Shown: piece after piece, positions 54,128 through 64,000 of the stretch
Position numbering within the stretch: position 1 is the first letter of the stretch
Layout: the number at the start of each line of letters is the position of its first letter
Assembly: GCF_023243045.1 (NCBI RefSeq)
Contig: NZ_JALKFX010000017.1
Span: forward strand, 1 to 64,000
Source of the DNA: Frankia sp. AgB32
GTDB taxonomy: Bacteria; Actinomycetota; Actinomycetes; Frankiales; Frankiaceae
Length of the DNA: 64,000 nucleotides
Direction: 5' to 3'
Position numbers and translations under genes: made by a program
Notes under the pieces: generated by a model
Seen by the model: the letters and a program-made list of their open reading frames with translations, nothing else
Database searches by the model: none
Told to the model about the DNA's origin: nothing

Positions 54128-54752
54128 GCCGGCTATCGGACCGGCACACGAGAACACGCTGCCCGCCTCGGTCACCGCCGCGGTCAAGATCGTCGTGGTC
54201 GGCGGGTTCGGCGTCGGCAAGACGACCCTGGTCGGCTCCGTCAGCGAGATCAGACCGCTGCGGACCGAAGAGACGATGACCGAGGCCAGCGTCGGCGTGG
54301 ACGACGTCCGCGGGGTCGAGCAGAAGGGCGCGACCACCGTGGCCATGGACTTCGGCCGCATCAGCATCAACGAGGAACTGGTGCTCTACCTGTTCGGCAC
54401 GCCCGGACAACAGCGTTTCTGGTTCCTGTGGACCGGCCTGTTTGAGGGAGCCCTCGGCGCGGTCGTCCTGGTCGACACCCGGCGGCTCGAGGCGAGCTTC
54501 GACGTCATCGGGCGGCTCGAGGACGGCGGCGTGCCGTTCATCGTGGCCGTCAACGTCTTCCCCGACTCCCCGACCCACCCGCTGGACGAGGTGCGTGCCG
54601 CGCTGGACCTGCCGGCTGCCGTACCGATCGTCGCGTGCGACGCGCGCAGCCGGGCCTCGAGCCGGGACACCCTGCTGGCCCTCATGCGCTACCTGTACTG
54701 GCTGTCCACCCGATCCGCGGCCCCCGTGGCCGCCTGCGCCGCCACGGAGTAA
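54108..54752 (+). CDS. cvnD: Conservon small GTPase CvnD
   Basis: Ras-superfamily-like GTP/ATP-binding protein of 214 residues. Walker A is GGFGVGKTT at 32-40, the switch II/G3 region is LFGTPGQQRFWFLW, and VNVFPDS lies at the position of the NKxD specificity loop, which is degenerate as in other CvnD proteins. The ATG at 54108 overlaps cvnC by 20 bases. In Streptomyces the state of CvnD controls secondary metabolism and development. Its direct neighbours downstream are a P450 and a terpene synthase. Confidence 0.9.
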   Translation: MGSRGSEPAIGPAHENTLPASVTAAVKIVVVGGFGVGKTTLVGSVSEIRPLRTEETMTEASVGVDDVRGVEQKGATTVAMDFGRISINEELVLYLFGTPGQQRFWFLWTGLFEGALGAVVLVDTRRLEASFDVIGRLEDGGVPFIVAVNVFPDSPTHPLDEVRAALDLPAAVPIVACDARSRASSRDTLLALMRYLYWLSTRSAAPVAACAATE

Positions 54753-54754
54753 GC

Positions 54755-56179
54755 GTGTCACCCTCCACACCCGAATCAGGCGCCGCGATCCCGCCGCAGG
54801 AATGCCCCGCGCGGGCGGTCTTCGCGCAGGGAGCGACCCTGACCGCCCTGTACGGCCCGGCGGCGCGGCGCGATCCAGGCGCGGTGTACGAGAAGCTCCG
54901 CGCGGAACACGGCGGGATCGCCCCGGTGGAGCTCGAGGGCGGCGTCCCGGCCTGGCTGGTGCTCGGCTACCAGGAGAACACGCAGGTCGCGCGCACCCCG
55001 AGCCGGTTCACCCGGGACGCCCGGCTCTGGCGGGACTGGAACGAGGGCAGGATCGCCGCGGACGACCCGCTGCTTCAGCTTCTCGGCTGGCGTCCCGACG
55101 TCGTGTCCTACGACGGCGAGGAGCACCGGCGGCTTCGCGCCGCGGTCAACGAGTGCCTGACCAGGTTCGACCGGCACGGCACCCGACGGCACGTGCAGCG
55201 CTACGCGAACCAGCTGATCGACGGCTTCGTCGAGGACGGCGCCGCGGACCTGGTGACCCAGTTCGCCGCGTACCTGCCGATGCTCGTGCTGAGCCGGCTG
55301 GTCGGCCTGGATGAGGAGCACGGCCCGAAACTGGTCGAGGCCATCGTCGGCATGGTGAGCGGCGGAGAGAAGGCATTCGCCCACAACCAGTACATCATCG
55401 GCACCCTGCGGGCACTGACCGAGGAACGGCGCAGGGCCCCCGTGCACGACCTGGCGTCCTGGTTCATCCAGCACCCCTCGGGGCTCAACGACGACGAGGT
55501 GTGCGCGCACCTGCGCCTGGTGATCGTGCTGGGCTACGAGGCCACGACGAACCTGGTCTCGAACACGCTGCGGATGGTGCTGACCGACCCCCGCTTCCGT
55601 GCGTCGCTCGCCGGCGGGCTCATGACGCTGCCGGACGCGGTCGAGCAGATCCTCTGGGACGACCCGCCGCTGCTGGTGTGCCCGGCGCGGTTCGCCACGC
55701 ATGACATGCGGTTCGCCGACAGGGAGATCCGCAAGGGCGACATGCTGCTGCTCGGTATCGCGGCGGGCAACGCGGATCCGCAGGTCCGCCCGGACCCGGG
55801 CGCGCCGATCCACGGCAACCGCTCGCACCTGGCGTTCAGCCGGGGCCCGCACGAGTGCTCGGGACAGGAGATCGCCCGCGCCATCACCGACACCGGCGTC
55901 GACGTGCTTCTCAACCGGCTGCCCGACCTGCATCTCACGGTGCCGGAGGACCAGCTGACCTGGACCGCGTCGACCTGGTCCCGGCACCTTGACGCGCTCC
56001 CGGTCACGTTCGCCCCGCGGCGGCGCCCCGCTCCGCAGTCCGCCCCGGCCGCCCGAGTCGAGCGGAGCGCCGCGACGGACGCACGGGCGGCAATGGCCGA
56101 GGCGGACGCGCAGGCCGAGGCGGACGCCCGCCGTGGCTTCTGGGCCTCGCTGGTCGACCTGGTCCGCGGTCGGCGTTAG
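54755..56179 (+). CDS. CYP157-like cytochrome P450 without the ExxR motif
   Basis: P450 of 474 residues, the usual fifth gene of a conservon. The heme motif is FSRGPHECSGQ with Cys368. The K-helix, normally ExxR, reads EQILW (Glu297-Trp301); loss of this arginine is the known peculiarity of Streptomyces CYP157 enzymes. The I-helix reads LGYEATTN. A C-terminal tail of about 45 residues is Ala/Arg-rich and ends in a short amphipathic helix (FWASLVDLVRGRR), perhaps a membrane or partner contact. GTG at 54755 is 3 bases after the cvnD stop. It may oxidise the product of the neighbouring terpene synthase (inference). Confidence 0.9.
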   Translation: MSPSTPESGAAIPPQECPARAVFAQGATLTALYGPAARRDPGAVYEKLRAEHGGIAPVELEGGVPAWLVLGYQENTQVARTPSRFTRDARLWRDWNEGRIAADDPLLQLLGWRPDVVSYDGEEHRRLRAAVNECLTRFDRHGTRRHVQRYANQLIDGFVEDGAADLVTQFAAYLPMLVLSRLVGLDEEHGPKLVEAIVGMVSGGEKAFAHNQYIIGTLRALTEERRRAPVHDLASWFIQHPSGLNDDEVCAHLRLVIVLGYEATTNLVSNTLRMVLTDPRFRASLAGGLMTLPDAVEQILWDDPPLLVCPARFATHDMRFADREIRKGDMLLLGIAAGNADPQVRPDPGAPIHGNRSHLAFSRGPHECSGQEIARAITDTGVDVLLNRLPDLHLTVPEDQLTWTASTWSRHLDALPVTFAPRRRPAPQSAPAARVERSAATDARAAMAEADAQAEADARRGFWASLVDLVRGRR

Positions 56180-56197
56180 GGGAGACGGCCGGCCGAC

Positions 56198-56228
56198 GTG
56201 GCGCCCGGCAGCGATTCCCGGGCGCCAC
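56198..56228. terminator. Strong bidirectional hairpin terminator
   Basis: GTGGCGCCCGG at 56198-56208 pairs perfectly with CCGGGCGCCAC at 56218-56228 around a 9-base loop. It stands between the convergent P450 and terpene synthase genes. No long T-run follows, as is common in this group. Confidence 0.75.
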
Positions 56229-56249
56229 TGCTGTCTTGCCGACCCACTG

Positions 56250-57269
56250 TCACGCCGCCTGCGGCGAGGTCAGCAGGCGGGATATCTCCTCGCGCGGCGG
56301 ATCCGTGTCCATCAGCAGCTCGTTGGCGGCGGCCCACGCCTGGTAACCCCAGTTCCAGTCGTCGGCGATCCTGGCACCCATCCGTGCCTGGGCGCGTTCC
56401 GCGCCGGTGAACCGAAGCACGTCGCAGGCTGTGTCAAGGCGCTGCTTCGTGGTGTGTATCGACTGGTCAAGCGCGCGCATCTCCTGCTCGCAGCGCGCTC
56501 TCGCCGCGTGCCAGTCGCAGCCCTCCTGGTCGCGGATGATCGTGATCAGGTTGCGCGGGTCGGCGCGCTTCGCGTCGCGGACCGAGGAGTAGACGTCGTT
56601 GCAGTACACGATGATGTCGCTGGTCAACGTGCGCAGCAGTCGCAACTGGGTGCAGTGGTGGACGTGCGGCGCCAGGTAGGTGCGGTTGGCCTTCTCGCCG
56701 AACACCAGGCACAGCGGCACCGCGCCGTTTCCCAGGCGCAGTTCCAGGTACTCCTCGACCGTCGTGTCCAGCCGCCGGTCCCGCATCGCGGCGTAGGCCG
56801 CCTGCGTGTTGAAATACCATTCCCAGTGCTCGCGGACCCGAGCCACCCACTGGTCCGGGGAACTGGTGATCTGCCGCGTCCACAGATCATCGAAGATCAT
56901 CCCCAGGTGGGACCTCGCGGGTCTACCGTAGAGAATCCCGGTGAGTTCCGCGCCGATGACGTTGATGCGGCCGATGTCCGCCGCCAGGTCGTCGGTGAAG
57001 TCGTCGTAGATCCGGAAGAAGGCGTGGATGTCGTAGGCGAGTTCCAACTCCGGCAGCGGGGCCAGCGGATACGCCCAGGCAGAAAGTGTGGCGTACCTCT
57101 CGGCGCGGGGTGTGTGGACCTGGAGGCGGGTGAGCCATTCGACGGTGTGCGCCAGGGCTTCGGGCGCGTTCCTGTTCGGCTGCCAGGATCGCGCGGCTTC
57201 GTGCACGGTGAGGATCTGCTCGCCATTCATCACGTCTTGGCCTGTCTCCTGGTGACGGATCGGGATCAT
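56250..57269 (-). CDS. Class I terpene synthase
   Basis: Bacterial terpene cyclase of 339 residues. The aspartate-rich metal motif is DDFTD at 89-93, followed by D94. The NSE triad reads NDVYSSVRD at 224-232 (Asn224, Ser228, Asp232), with a basic residue at 231. The effector Arg region precedes it (RTLTSD). The usual RY pair near the C-terminus appears as WGYQAW. The size fits a sesquiterpene or diterpene cyclase; the product is not predictable. The start could be 57269 or an internal ATG near 57230, since neither has a perfect binding site. It converges on the conservon P450. Confidence 0.88.
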   Translation of the reverse strand: MIPIRHQETGQDVMNGEQILTVHEAARSWQPNRNAPEALAHTVEWLTRLQVHTPRAERYATLSAWAYPLAPLPELELAYDIHAFFRIYDDFTDDLAADIGRINVIGAELTGILYGRPARSHLGMIFDDLWTRQITSSPDQWVARVREHWEWYFNTQAAYAAMRDRRLDTTVEEYLELRLGNGAVPLCLVFGEKANRTYLAPHVHHCTQLRLLRTLTSDIIVYCNDVYSSVRDAKRADPRNLITIIRDQEGCDWHAARARCEQEMRALDQSIHTTKQRLDTACDVLRFTGAERAQARMGARIADDWNWGYQAWAAANELLMDTDPPREEISRLLTSPQAA

Positions 57270-58802: not shown

Positions 58803-60014
58803 TCAGGGTGCGATCTCCTTGCCGCAGAGCTGCGGGCCCATCACGTTGTACCCGGTGCCTGTGGGATTGACCTGAACGAACGTGTAGCAGGTCACCGGCC
58901 GGCCGAGGTTGGTCTTGAAGTTGACCGGGCTGATCAGACCGCCGGCGTCATAGTTGGTGACAGACCGAAGGCCATTGATGAAGCTCTGCCGGGTGGGGCA
59001 GTCGCCAGCGGCCTCCAGGCCGCGGACGAACGTGTCCGCCACGATGTAGGACAGGACGGCAATGTCCTGGTTGGGCTGGGTGATCTGGGGTGCGTAGCGT
59101 GCCATCGCGGCGGAGTAGGCGTCGATCGCGGGGCCACCGGCCTCGAAGGGAAGGTGGAAGACCGGCGTAATGATGCCGGCCACCTGGGGACCGTAGGTTC
59201 GCAGTAGTTGCTGGTCATAGCCGCCGGAGGAAATCATGACCTTTGGATTCTTTCCGGCGGAACGCAGCAGGTTCAGCAGCTGGACGGTCTCAGGGTTCCC
59301 CATCATGCTGACGACGGTGTCCGGACCAAGGGCGATCACCTTCGCCGCGAGCCCCTGGATGCTGTCGGTGCTCGTGTTGAAGTTCAACGTGTTGAGGATG
59401 GGAATGCCGGCGGCTTCCAGGCTCTGGTAGTACTGCGCTGCCGGATTGGTAAGGCCCGCGGAGAGCGCCGGCTGAACGATGACGGCTCGGGTGCCGCCCT
59501 GCGACTTCACGAACTGCCCGTAGGTGTCCACGGCCGCGGAGCTGTCGTAGACGAACGAGAACATGTTCCGGTACTGCGACCAGATCTTCTCGATTGCCAG
59601 ACCGGAGACGGGTACTCCTTGGTCAGCCAGGTACTGCGCGCTTCCGCTCGCGGTGAGTGACGTTTCGAGGAGGCCAAAAACGTGTTGCTGCTCGACAAGA
59701 TCTCGGGCGCCCACGTAGTTCGCCACCGTCGATCCCCGATCGTCTCGCCACTCCAGGGTGATTTTACGACCGTGGACGCCGCCCGCCGCATTCGTGACTC
59801 CGAAGCGAGCGTCGATGGCGGAACGGACGGAGAGGAATCCGGAGGCGAGTGGCCCGCTGTCGGGAAGGAGCAGGCCGGCCTTGATTTCGTTCTGCGTGAC
59901 TCCTGGGCTGGAGCAGGCGGGCGTGGCCGGGGTGTCCGAACTGGAGCAACCGACCGCGGCCACCAGGAGCAACACTGCGGACACTAGGCGTAAAGCATGG
60001 TGACGTGAAGACAC
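58803..60014 (-). CDS. Branched-chain amino acid-type ABC substrate-binding lipoprotein (orphan)
   Basis: Secreted binding protein of 403 residues of the LivK/Peripla_BP_6 family. A short basic start and hydrophobic stretch end in a lipobox LLVAAVGC (Cys23). KAGLLLPDSGPLASGFLSVR, NAAGGVHGRKITLEWRDDRG and VQLLNLLRSAGKNPKVMISS are family hallmarks. GTG at 60014 follows GGGGAG. No LivHMGF permease or ATPase genes are adjacent, so it either works with a distant transporter or acts as a sensor component. In actinomycetes such proteins often bind aromatic or steroid-like compounds rather than amino acids. Confidence 0.87.
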   Translation of the reverse strand: MSSRHHALRLVSAVLLLVAAVGCSSSDTPATPACSSPGVTQNEIKAGLLLPDSGPLASGFLSVRSAIDARFGVTNAAGGVHGRKITLEWRDDRGSTVANYVGARDLVEQQHVFGLLETSLTASGSAQYLADQGVPVSGLAIEKIWSQYRNMFSFVYDSSAAVDTYGQFVKSQGGTRAVIVQPALSAGLTNPAAQYYQSLEAAGIPILNTLNFNTSTDSIQGLAAKVIALGPDTVVSMMGNPETVQLLNLLRSAGKNPKVMISSGGYDQQLLRTYGPQVAGIITPVFHLPFEAGGPAIDAYSAAMARYAPQITQPNQDIAVLSYIVADTFVRGLEAAGDCPTRQSFINGLRSVTNYDAGGLISPVNFKTNLGRPVTCYTFVQVNPTGTGYNVMGPQLCGKEIAP

Positions 60015-60716
60015 AGCGCTCCCCGAAGGCCGGCCCGGCTGGAAGATTTATCCGCATTTAAGGTGGAACGTAGGTGATGCCATCGGCTTGCGGGTCACCG
60101 GAGGACGGTTGGCCGCGTGGTAATGGAGCGCGGCCATGTCCTCGAACTCTGGCCGACAAGGGGATATTAGCCAGATGATCCTCGATGGATAATGACAGTC
60201 AGGCAGGTCCGTCTTGTCCTGCCATGTCGCCGATGTCGGCGTCGTCGTTGGTAGTGGGGACCTCGGACTGTCGGTATCGTTACCTCCCCCTGATCGTCAT
60301 GTCGGATTGGATCTTTGATTATCCTTCTGCATGTGTTGCGGGTCACAAATGTTGCGGCGAGGCTCACCGCCTTCGATGCCAACGTCAACAACGGGTGGGA
60401 CGTGGCGGCCCGCCGCTGCCGCGCCCTCGCTGTGCTGGTCGTGGGCCGCGTCCATGGGTTGGTGTTGGCCGGCACGCCGGACGTTCGCCCTGTCTGGCGC
60501 GGAGGTTGGCGACCGGGCAATATTGACGTCGATGTTAATAGAACGCTATGTTGCCCGTCGTGGCTGAGGCGCCGCGTGCAGTCCCCAAGGCTGGAGGCGA
60601 CATGTATCCAGATAGCTATTCGATTCCGCCGCGAATCGGACGAGTGCGGTGACCGCGGAACCATGGCGTCGGCACCCAGGAACGACGTTCACGCAACCGG
60701 GCGTCGGGCTGGAGCC
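60015..60716. promoter_or_regulatory. Divergent region with promoter for the phosphotransferase gene
   Basis: About 700 bases between divergent genes, with lower GC than the average. TTGACG at 60523-60528 and TATGTT at 60547-60552 are 18 bases apart and form a good promoter reading towards the phosphotransferase. Its -35 box lies inside a palindromic operator (60519-60540). I see no intact gene in the region, though one plus-strand frame stays open through it. Confidence 0.5.
60519..60540. promoter_or_regulatory. Palindromic operator, copy 1
   Basis: AATATTGACGTCGATGTT at 60519-60536 is an imperfect palindrome around GACGTC (14 of 18 positions symmetric). It overlaps the -35 box of the promoter at 60523-60552. 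A second copy, 16 of 18 identical in reverse orientation, is at 63343-63360 in front of the cupin gene. A TetR-family gene lies between them and is the obvious candidate binder. Confidence 0.6.
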
Positions 60717-61835
60717 ATGAGCGGGGAGCCTGACGTGGGCGGGTCGGCCCACCCCTTCGGCGCAACCCGGGTCGTCGACGACCCGGCCGAGATCACGCCG
60801 GCGTGGATGACCGACGTCCTCCGTGCGGGCGGGAGCGACGTCGAGGTCACCGGCCTGCGCTACGAACCCGTCGGCACGGGACAGACCGCCGTCAGCTACC
60901 GCTTCCACCTCGATCTCAAGCCGGGCCAGACCAGCCGCGGGCCGCGGAGCGTGGTGGTGAAGATGGCCGCCGGCTCCACGGACGTCCGCCGTCGGCTGCG
61001 GCGCGCCTACCGCAGCGAGGTCGGCTTCTACGTCGCCTTCGCCTCGCGCGCGCTGATCCGGGTGCCCCACTGCTGGAGCGCCGCGCTCAGCGAGGACCGG
61101 CTGCGCTTCACCCTGGTGCTGGAGGACGTCCGGCCGGCACGGGCCGGCAGGCAGGTCGAGGGCTGCACGCTCGCCGAGGCGACCCTCGCCGTCGAGAACC
61201 TCGCGGGCCTGCACGCACCGTTCTGGAACGAGACGGACCTCGTGGCGCAGGCCGACTGGCTGATCGAGCTCGACGACGCCGGCCTGGCGATCCTCGGCAA
61301 GACGGCCGTCGCGGCCGCCGCCGACTTCACCGCGCGGTACCACGCCGATCTCGGGCCGCGCGACGTCGGCGTCCTTCGGCGCGCGGCCGAACTCGTCGCC
61401 GGCTGGGGGAATCGCATGTCGTCCCACCGGTCCCTGGTCCATGGGGACTACCGACTGGACAACCTCCTGTTCCTGGGCGACGGCGAGCAGCGGACAGTCG
61501 ACTGGCAGACCGTCGAGGTCGGCCTGCCCGGCCGCGATCTCGCCTACTTCCTCTCCACCGCCCTGGCACCCGCCGACCGGCGGTCGCACGAGGCAGGGCT
61601 CGTTGCCGCCTATCACCGGCGCCTGCTGGCACACGGGGTCACCGGCTATTCCGCGGACGACTGCTTCGAGGACTACCGCTGCGGCATGCTGCAGGGACCG
61701 GTGATCACGATGATCGGCTGCGTCTTCGCGAGCGCCCCACGGACGGCCAGTTCCGACCGGATGTTCCTGTCGATGGCAGCCAACGTGTCGGCCGCCATCG
61801 ACGAGCTGGGAGTGCTGGACCTGCTCGCGGCCTAG
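60717..61835 (+). CDS. Aminoglycoside phosphotransferase (APH)/EcKL-like kinase
   Basis: Small-molecule kinase-fold protein of about 372 residues. LRYEPVGTGQTAVSYRFHL is the nucleotide loop, SVVVKMAAGS holds the ATP-binding Lys, HGDYRLDNLLF is the catalytic Brenner loop (Asp and Asn), and TVDWQTVEVG is the DFG-like metal-binding Asp. It resembles the ecdysteroid-kinase-like APH group often found in actinobacterial lipid and xenobiotic catabolic clusters. ATG at 60717 is chosen at the start of homology; an ATG at 60663 is also in frame. A second family member is at the window end. Substrate unknown. Confidence 0.83.
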   Translation: MSGEPDVGGSAHPFGATRVVDDPAEITPAWMTDVLRAGGSDVEVTGLRYEPVGTGQTAVSYRFHLDLKPGQTSRGPRSVVVKMAAGSTDVRRRLRRAYRSEVGFYVAFASRALIRVPHCWSAALSEDRLRFTLVLEDVRPARAGRQVEGCTLAEATLAVENLAGLHAPFWNETDLVAQADWLIELDDAGLAILGKTAVAAAADFTARYHADLGPRDVGVLRRAAELVAGWGNRMSSHRSLVHGDYRLDNLLFLGDGEQRTVDWQTVEVGLPGRDLAYFLSTALAPADRRSHEAGLVAAYHRRLLAHGVTGYSADDCFEDYRCGMLQGPVITMIGCVFASAPRTASSDRMFLSMAANVSAAIDELGVLDLLAA

Positions 61836-62088
61836 CTACACGATGGCCTGATGGGCGTGACGACCGCGTCACACCGTGGTGAGAGCCCTTGGTTCTACCG
61901 AGACGAGAAATACCGTACCCCGAGTAGTGAGGGTATCGTTCTACCGAGGCGGTGACGCCGAGCCACGGACGATCGGCTGAGAGGCGCGCGGGCGGGTGCG
62001 GGCGGGTGCGGGCGAGCCTGGCACGTCTCGTGTTGGGTGTCGCTTCACGTCTCGGGACTTTGATGCGGGTGAGGACGGGTGCACTGTC
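61836..62088. promoter_or_regulatory. Upstream region of the TetR gene with repeats
   Basis: GTTCTACCGAG occurs twice as a perfect 11-base direct repeat (61892-61902 and 61938-61948). Between them TACCC at 61916-61920 and GGGTA at 61931-61935 form an inverted repeat with a 10-base spacer. Further on, a GGCGGGTGCG unit is repeated about 2.5 times near 61991-62013. The first set is a plausible operator or promoter region for the TetR gene. Confidence 0.45.
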
Positions 62089-62769
62089 GTGAGTGCTGAC
62101 AACGTCTCGACGGTGCCCTGGGTCGAGCGAGCCGTTGACCGATCGCCGACGGTGCAGCGTTCGCGGACGCGCAGCATGCAGCAGGCGACGAATCTCGTCG
62201 AGGCCGCCGAGCGGTTGATCGCGACGAAGGGCGCCCGGTTCACGACCCAGGAGCTCGTGAAGGAGGCCGGTGTCGCGATGCAGACCTTCTACCGTCACTT
62301 CGCGGGCAAGGACCAGCTACTGCTGGCCGTGGTCGAAGATCTGATCACCCGTGAGGTCGCGGGCTTCCAGGAGGCCGCGAGCGGCATAGCGGACCCGCTC
62401 TCCCGACTGCGCAGCTACATCGTGGCCGCGCTGACCACCCTGGGCACCCAGAGCAGTGAGAGCGCCGGATCGCAGTTCATCACGACCGAGCACTGGCGGC
62501 TCCACCAGCAGTACCCGGAGGAGATGGCCCACGCCACCCGGCCGTTCGCGGACCTCGTCGCAGGTGAACTCGACGCGGCCAGGCAGGCAGGTCTGCTCGA
62601 CCCGAGCGATGTGGAGCAGGACGCGGAGTTGGTGGCCAGGCTGGTCATGTCCGTTTATCACCACTACGCCTTCGCGACGGCCGCGGAGCCGATGGAGGTG
62701 ATCGGCGAACGTCTGTGGAGGTTCTGCCTCCGAGGTCTTGGTGGCAACCCCAGCGGGGACGGTGCCTGA
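62089..62769 (+). CDS. TetR-family transcriptional regulator
   Basis: Regulator of 226 residues. The N-terminal DNA-binding domain reads LVEAAERLIATKGARFTTQE, LVKEAGVAMQTFYRHFAGKD and QLLLAVVEDL, with an arginine-rich lead. The all-helical C-terminal part binds the ligand; it contains TTEHWRLHQQYPEEM. GTG at 62089 is preferred, though the frame is open from 61996. It lies between the phosphotransferase and cupin genes, whose promoters share a palindrome. Repression of both, lifted by a small molecule, is the simplest model (inference). Confidence 0.88.
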   Translation: MSADNVSTVPWVERAVDRSPTVQRSRTRSMQQATNLVEAAERLIATKGARFTTQELVKEAGVAMQTFYRHFAGKDQLLLAVVEDLITREVAGFQEAASGIADPLSRLRSYIVAALTTLGTQSSESAGSQFITTEHWRLHQQYPEEMAHATRPFADLVAGELDAARQAGLLDPSDVEQDAELVARLVMSVYHHYAFATAAEPMEVIGERLWRFCLRGLGGNPSGDGA

Positions 62770-62870
62770 CCGGGGTCGTGGATCGAGGCGGTCCCGTGCG
62801 CTGACGGCGGGAGTTCGCGCGACCGTACCGGCACCGGACAACGGAATGTCCGGTCATGGCCGAAGGAGGG

Positions 62871-63287
62871 TCAGCCGGCGGATTCGCCCGAGACCACGTC
62901 GCCTGTCCAACCCTGGGCGATCATCTTCTCGAAATGATCCATCACCATCTGCAGCGGTGCCGCTGGATTGAACTCGAGGCACTCGCTGTCCTCCTCGTAG
63001 ATCAGCGAGTGACCGGCCGGGAAGAAGTACACATCTCCGGCCACCGCGACTTCCTCCGGCAGGTCGCTGCCCGGATACACCGCACGCAACCGACCGCTGA
63101 AGACGTAGCCGTAGTGCGGGCACGGACAGAGACCGTCCGGTAGTCCCTGATACGCCGGCGTGCAGTCCACTGCCCCGGTGACCGTGTAACCGACCTCCAT
63201 CTCGCCCCACTGCACGGAACGAAACCCGGTACTCGGCCACCGGCCGCCACCGTTCGCCGGCAGTTCCGTCGCTCGGCTCACAGGCAT
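62871..63287 (-). CDS. Cupin-domain protein
   Basis: Small beta-barrel protein of 138 residues. CPHYGYVFSGRLRAVYPG and VAGDVYFFPAGHSLIYEEDS correspond to the two cupin motifs, with potential metal ligands in CPCPHYGYV and AGHSLIYEE. It may be an enzyme or a ligand-binding protein. The ATG at 63287 follows GGAG at 8 bases; the frame is open to 63383. A palindromic operator lies about 55-75 bases upstream. It is convergent with the TetR gene. Confidence 0.72.
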   Translation of the reverse strand: MPVSRATELPANGGGRWPSTGFRSVQWGEMEVGYTVTGAVDCTPAYQGLPDGLCPCPHYGYVFSGRLRAVYPGSDLPEEVAVAGDVYFFPAGHSLIYEEDSECLEFNPAAPLQMVMDHFEKMIAQGWTGDVVSGESAG

Positions 63288-63342
63288 TGCCACTACTCCA
63301 TCGTCGGGTGGTGGGCGGAATCTGGCGATGGGGCCGATATCT

Positions 63343-63360
63343 ATATCGACGTCAACATTA
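63343..63360. promoter_or_regulatory. Palindromic operator, copy 2
   Basis: ATATCGACGTCAACATTA matches the reverse complement of the site at 60519-60536 at 16 of 18 positions, centred on GACGTC. It lies in the promoter region of the cupin gene and overlaps a possible -10 (TATAGAT on the minus strand). Confidence 0.55.
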
Positions 63361-63408
63361 GCAACTATGGTGTTGGCCGGCAACCGGTGTTGGACGCCAC
63401 CGGCCCGC

Positions 63409-64000
63409 TCACGGCGTGGGGATCGGGTCGACGGCGGTGAACGCGTGGTGGTCGGCGGCCGCGGTGCCGAGGCGTTCGAGGAGCACGCTGGTCACCTCCG
63501 GGTCGACCAGCTGGGTGATGCCCCACAGGTAGAAGCCGTACAGGATGCCGCGGCGAAGACCCAGCAGAGCGTCGTCCCACGAGGGTGCGGCGATGCCGGC
63601 GGCGCTCAGCCGGTCGAGATAGTGGCGCAGCAGATCCCCCTCGGTGCGTCGGCGGTCAGCCACCGTGAGGGCGGACGCGATGTGGTAGCCGACGTCGAGG
63701 TACCACGGACCACGCTGCACGAGCTGCCAGTCCGCGAAGGACGGCCGGCCGTCGCCGTCGAGGTAGAGATTGCCGACGTGCGGATCGCCGTGGATGACGC
63801 TCCACACCGGCGACGTCCGGGTGCCCTCGGCGAGGGCGCGGAAGGCGCTGACGAGCCGCTCGGCATCCCGCGTCCGCTCGGGGACGGCGGCTCCCACCCA
63901 GCTCTCGAAGTTGCCGCGGATCTCCCTGACCCCCCTGCCCGCGAGGAGTCCGGTCAGCCGTGGGTCGAGCCACCCGGCGCCGGCAAGCGAGGGATCACCC
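63409..64000 (-). CDS. Aminoglycoside phosphotransferase-like protein, partial (5' end outside window)
   Basis: C-terminal 196 codons of a second APH-fold kinase; the frame is open to the end of the window and the start lies beyond it. VIHGDPHVGNLYLD is the Brenner catalytic loop and SFADWQLVQRGPWYLDVGY the metal-binding Asp segment. It resembles the intact phosphotransferase at 60717-61835 in motif order and C-terminal features (RGILYGFYLWGITQL compares with RCGMLQGPVITMIG). The two may act on related substrates in one regulon. Confidence 0.85.
   Translation of the reverse strand, partial: GDPSLAGAGWLDPRLTGLLAGRGVREIRGNFESWVGAAVPERTRDAERLVSAFRALAEGTRTSPVWSVIHGDPHVGNLYLDGDGRPSFADWQLVQRGPWYLDVGYHIASALTVADRRRTEGDLLRHYLDRLSAAGIAAPSWDDALLGLRRGILYGFYLWGITQLVDPEVTSVLLERLGTAAADHHAFTAVDPIPTP

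Follow-up and report, generated by a model that had tools for sequence, protein, structure and literature searches.

Which regulator reads the two matching palindromes that flank a TetR-family gene near one end of a stretch of the Frankia sp. AgB32 genome? The stretch, called the window here, comprises positions 1 to 64,000 of contig NZ_JALKFX010000017.1 (C88 in our numbering). The first-pass annotation had proposed that the TetR protein encoded between the palindromes governs both of them as a small, local regulon. Our analyses point to a different answer. On balance it appears probable that the palindromes are operators of another TetR subfamily of the Frankiaceae, named A3 here, which would act on the window in trans, and that they do not belong to the intervening TetR, a member of a family that we call A1.

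The palindromes and their promoter context

The 18-bp sequence AATATTGACGTCGATGTT is present exactly at 60519-60536 on the forward strand, and its partner, AATGTTGACGTCGATATA, lies at 63342-63359 on the reverse strand. The near-identical reverse copy reported earlier does exist, but it begins at 63342 rather than 63343 and agrees at 15 of 18 positions (3 mismatches) rather than 16. These are the only two matches to the 18-mer in the window at up to 3 mismatches, against a mean of 0.01 in 100 dinucleotide shuffles, which bears out the claim of two matching palindromes flanking a TetR gene. As 28-bp segments of an extended palindrome around those cores, operator 1 spans 60514-60541, between a substrate-binding protein gene and phosphotransferase 1, and operator 2 spans 63337-63364; neither is assigned a strand. 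A third copy, operator 3, is found at C88:64941-64965, 941 bp past the window end and before phosphotransferase 2.

A promoter-like pair, with the -35 element TTGACG and the -10 element TATGTT separated by 18 bp, lies at 60523-60552 on the forward strand and overlaps operator 1, as the first-pass annotation had it. The interval 60000-64000 contains 2 promoter-like matches, this one included, against an expectation of 0.3. Palindromic sites that lie in promoters and overlap promoter elements are the pattern looked for in TetR operators, and the motif shows it. The reading that both sites act like repressor-type operators is supported, and the protein most likely to bind them belongs to the TetR family.

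Recurrence of the motif across the Frankiaceae

The motif extends to about 26 bp, TGTCAATATCGACGTCGATATTGACA, and recurs in the AgB32 genome and in many other Frankiaceae, so that the proposal of a small, local regulon is not supported. A sequence-only model built from 17 sites in both orientations (consensus nTGTCAATATCGACGTCGATATTGACAn) matches 12 distinct places in the AgB32 genome at E<0.1, of which 11 come from the training set and one is new (C80:1974); operator 1 scores E 0.003 and operator 2 E 0.016-0.02. Searching the family with the same model gives a match at E<=0.02 in 21 of 35 genomes, some of them false. The model's reversed-sequence control (121 versus 0) is a weak one, as training sites are included and the repeats are self-palindromic. 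A strict pattern that disfavors coding repeats gives 244 matches in the 35 genomes, versus 16 for the reversed control. Our first, degenerate pattern had matched 132 places in the AgB32 genome at up to 3 mismatches, versus 8 for the reversed pattern; that count was dropped as evidence, being inflated by in-frame GTCGAC repeats. As a draw of 295 other genomes from across the phylum gave only 4 with a match at E<=0.005, the motif appears, at the sensitivity used, to be essentially confined to the Frankiaceae. Our searches, which covered open-licence papers of PubMed Central, turned up no description of it.

The position of the sites argues for a promoter element. Loci longer than 5 kb contain 78 unique sites scoring 26 bits or more. 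Of these, 44 are intergenic, 33 fall at a gene start or end (the first 40% of a gene, where start codons are overcalled, or its very end) and 1 inside a gene, with genes called by a simple GC-frame heuristic; random positions in the same loci fall inside genes 47.6% of the time. Across 105 unique sites (210 orientations), counts of the hexamer TANNNT behind the 28-mer are 7, 14, 5 and 7 at offsets 4, 5, 10 and 11, respectively (33 in total), and 7 over the whole range of offsets 12-49. With TANNNT at offset 5 and an 18-bp spacer, the central TYGACG becomes the -35 element, a geometry identical to that at 60523-60552. In our interpretation, the consensus can be divided into four 6-bp units, TCAATA TCGACG TCGATA TTGACA.

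In GC-rich DNA the motif can be mimicked by coding repeats of the (GAYRTC)n kind, and it might then be a by-product of them rather than an operator. The model matches that we inspected in the A3-negative genomes G004 and G011 and, from the genus search, in G003 indeed proved to be in-frame coding repeats and were discarded. For the strong sites, however, this explanation is largely refuted by the 77 of 78 that lie outside gene interiors, and the strict pattern, designed against such repeats, keeps its excess over the reversed control; we give it almost no credence. Operator mimicry by (GAYRTC)n coding repeats in A3-negative Frankia genomes can be seen at loci L056, L061, L069, L058, L068 and L059.

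Domains were counted in 150 of 159 candidate proteins of up to 420 amino acids encoded near the sites. The short-chain dehydrogenase and acyl-CoA dehydrogenase families lead with 15 proteins each, followed by TetR_N (14), SnoaL_4 (10), luciferase-like monooxygenase (9), Amidohydro_2 (7), enoyl-CoA hydratase (6) and APH (5). Judged from these domains, the gene set is one of acyl-CoA-type catabolism. Of the 25 Pfam families found most often near the sites, TetR_N alone is a regulator family. Separately, a MarR gene in the AgB32 genome (L011:5591-6097; genome G000, contig C5) has one motif copy on each side.

Linkage of the motif to TetR subfamilies

Subfamily A3 was spotted through 10 members in motif-rich loci, which we treat as seeds. 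It has 1-12 copies per genome, with 4 in AgB32 (C268:4092, C268:21755, C219:112157 and C37:10658), and a phylum search found A3 in 3 of 196 genomes outside the family at E<=1e-50. The comparison set for A1 comprises 32 of 35 hits in the 35 Frankiaceae genomes, with the window's own locus and a split pair excluded. A site of at least 20 bits lies within 4 kb in 48 of 68 A3 loci; without the seeds the figure is 40 of 58, versus 2 of 32 A1 loci (Fisher 3e-9). The contrast persists at 24 bits or more (31/58 versus 1/32), is weak at 28 bits (11/58 versus 1/32, p 0.05), and is retained at 20 bits after similar loci are removed (21/32 versus 2/18). Eight lower-scoring A3 loci had been added by hand, 6 of them with a site; excluding them leaves, by subtraction, 34 of 50. 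The 700 bp before the A3 gene itself, the position of an autoregulatory copy, contain a site in 27 of the 68 A3 loci; the corresponding interval upstream of the A1 TetR gene has one in 0 of 32. A palindrome search supplied with no motif was run de novo on 47 A3 upstream regions, non-redundant and with the seeds among them, and returned ATATcGACGTCGACGTCgATAT in 27 of 47 at width 22 and in 28 of 47 at width 26. Given that A3 loci hold the motif and that the palindrome emerges de novo from A3 upstream regions, A3 is most likely the subfamily to which the operator belongs. Since contig C88 carries no A3 gene, control at the window sites would have to be exerted in trans.

Several observations weigh against this assignment. 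The de novo palindrome has the same code as the window sites, with a center 6 bp wider. Genome-level motif counts track A3 (rho 0.73) and A1 (rho 0.71) alike, and with the strict pattern the A1 correlation is slightly higher; genome-level co-occurrence was set aside as a discriminator, as it fails to separate the two. No site of at least 20 bits lies within 4 kb in 20 of the 68 A3 loci, A3 genes are absent from the window's own contig, and the A3 genes might themselves sit in clusters ruled by another regulator. It is linkage and autoregulatory position, not co-occurrence across genomes, that tell A3 from A1.

The TetR encoded at 62089-62769 could instead bind both palindromes and repress the adjacent phosphotransferase and cupin genes, as first proposed. 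Its gene is situated between the sites, its family follows the genome-level motif counts as well as A3 does, and its neighborhood is conserved: A1 members occur in Frankia, Nocardia, Streptomyces and Actinocorallia, homologs of the kinase 2 (APH2-like) protein lie beside A1 TetRs in loci of all four genera, and cupin-like homologs with 59-72% identity lie beside them in 7 loci of Frankia and Nocardia (L162, L164, L165, L166, L170, L028 and L031), not counting a near-identical strain. Frankia sp. AgKG'84/4 has a 99% identical copy of the window TetR itself. Yet the site is not conserved with the orthologous TetR genes, as a private operator should be: the two A1 loci that do bear one belong to the near-identical strain G006 and to G014 (22.9 bits), and in another set of 21 A1 loci 19 have no site above 18 of 24 matches. 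Loci with the cupin-like gene, such as L162, L164 and L165, lack the palindrome despite a near-identical recognition-helix region. The stretch that we take to be the recognition helix reads VAMQTFYRHF in A1, nearly invariant in members whose loci lack the palindrome, versus SHGSFYTYF or APGTFYHYF in A3; both subfamilies resemble solved structures just at the general TetR level. Numerous sites are distant from every A1 copy, and two genomes without an A1 hit, G008 and G031, have both A3 genes and good sites; G034, likewise without an A1 hit, has A3 genes and 1 strict-pattern match. We therefore consider the window TetR an improbable owner of these palindromes.

The conserved association of A1 with cupin-like and kinase genes makes a local A1 circuit with a different operator plausible, and the cupin and kinase neighbors may be targets of the window TetR in that way. 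Such a circuit could be layered on the first, with A3 TetRs on the palindrome in trans and the window TetR on a separate operator in the same promoters. Two GTTCTACCGAG repeats at 61892-61960, upstream of the window TetR and with an inverted repeat between them, are a possible operator of its own and would fit this arrangement alongside the A3-linked palindromes. Against it, GTTCTACCGAG is not conserved in the A1 family (best copy scored), and expectation-maximization searches of the TetR, cupin-like and kinase upstream regions gave coding-like, GC-rich patterns and no A1 operator; none of these de novo motifs also marked the window TetR or cupin-like upstream regions. We regard layered control as unlikely. 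It is less likely still that a regulator of another type (MarR, for instance) or a nucleoid protein owns the motif, with A3 genes merely among its targets. The flanked MarR gene and the A3 loci devoid of a site would suit such an owner, but the commonest families near the sites include no regulator other than TetR, and the motif is nearly absent from the 295 other genomes of the phylum.

Predicted target genes and a possible promoter code

The order on contig C88 is lipoprotein (-), operator 1, kinase 1 (+), TetR (+), cupin-like (-), operator 2, kinase 2 (-) and operator 3. Divergent from operator 1, at about 500 bp, a Periplasmic_BP_6 substrate-binding lipoprotein gene (58803-60014, reverse strand; 8.6e-77) is a possible target. 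The EcKL/APH phosphotransferase 1 gene (60717-61835, forward strand, with its start at 60717 or 60663) is the predicted target of operator 1. The A1 TetR gene (62089-62769, forward strand; TetR_N 1.8e-13) probably does not encode the binder of these operators. The reverse-strand gene at 62871-63287, which starts 55 bp from operator 2, encodes a protein labeled cupin-like by eye; Pfam and NCBIfam gave no match for it at E<=0.001, and the conserved homologs noted above suggest a small conserved family. The C-terminal part of the EcKL/APH phosphotransferase 2 gene occupies 63409-64000 on the reverse strand, and the gene extends to about 64581 on the contig. Of the genes named in the first-pass annotation, the TetR and both phosphotransferases, one spanning 60.7-61.8 kb and the other at the end of the window, are confirmed, whereas "cupin" was a reading by eye.

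Past operator 3, the forward strand encodes Liv-type ATP-binding cassette (ABC) permeases and ATPases, a zinc alcohol dehydrogenase, a family III CoA-transferase and a thiolase-like protein (L005:8718-17492; C88 at about 64717-73491). Together with the two EcKL kinases, these genes look like an uptake and breakdown cluster. Elsewhere in the window, a terpene synthase family 2 gene (56250-57269, reverse strand) adjoins a P450-like open reading frame (54635-56179, forward strand) that falls just below the Pfam cut-off, and 54635-57269 is probably a small terpene cluster.

We propose that the site would be occupied by an A3 dimer or, in view of its length of 24-28 bp and its internal 6-bp repeat, by a pair of dimers. 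The bound protein would cover the -35 region and obstruct RNA polymerase, to be released by a catabolic intermediate, possibly an acyl-CoA or a related compound. In this model the same operator is reused at many acyl-CoA-type catabolic promoters and at the promoters of the A3 TetR genes themselves. In the window, the two kinases, the cupin-like gene and probably the Liv-type ABC transporter would come under A3 control in trans.

By analogy, the system may work like two mycobacterial circuits. KstR2 is a TetR repressor whose regulon has the motif AnCAAGnnCTTGnT, with three sites near its gene (PMC3068626), and BkaR is an autoregulatory TetR repressor of branched-chain keto-acid genes with the core GTTA(N)T(N4)A(N)TAAC (PMC3920632). 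Both resemble the Frankia system in that a TetR-type repressor has palindromic operators in its own and in target promoters, catabolic ones in the case of KstR2. The Frankia sites differ from KstR2 in their GACGTC core, their length of about 26 bp, their number and the several paralogous regulators (PMC3068626), and BkaR is a single regulator with few sites and a different core (PMC3920632). Compared by eye, the Frankia sites match neither the AnCAAGnnCTTGnT operator (PMC3068626) nor the BkaR operator (PMC3920632). Because the operators differ, the Frankia system is not a member of either regulon. Against KstR, whose curated cut-off is 280, two of three A3 members scored 21.3 and 19.6 bits, and the third A3 member tested and the window TetR had no match. 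A further parallel is the QacR-type operator, a 28-bp palindrome bound by a tetramer (PMC4482099): its length is similar, and binding by two dimers would suit the repeated 6-bp units of the Frankia site, but QacR controls efflux. As in mycobacterial TetRs predicted from divergent genes, palindromes emerge de novo upstream of conserved TetRs; unlike there, the Frankia operator is a single one that recurs across unlinked clusters (PMC4482099).

It is tempting to speculate that the up to a dozen paralogous TetRs of a Frankiaceae genome, which probably sense different compounds, keep one operator code, so that unlinked catabolic clusters, the window cluster included, might be joined in a single overlapping network, with several signals acting on the same promoters. 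We hold this only tentatively, and think it rather doubtful; if the paralogs do share one operator, they would exemplify the convergence of many repressors on a single code. The locus also illustrates that a TetR adjoining a palindrome can be the wrong regulator, even with a conserved neighborhood. As a sequence code marking catabolic promoters family-wide, the motif would offer a testable map of what plant symbionts and their soil relatives switch on, and a promoter code of this kind is of value because Frankia is hard to manipulate genetically.
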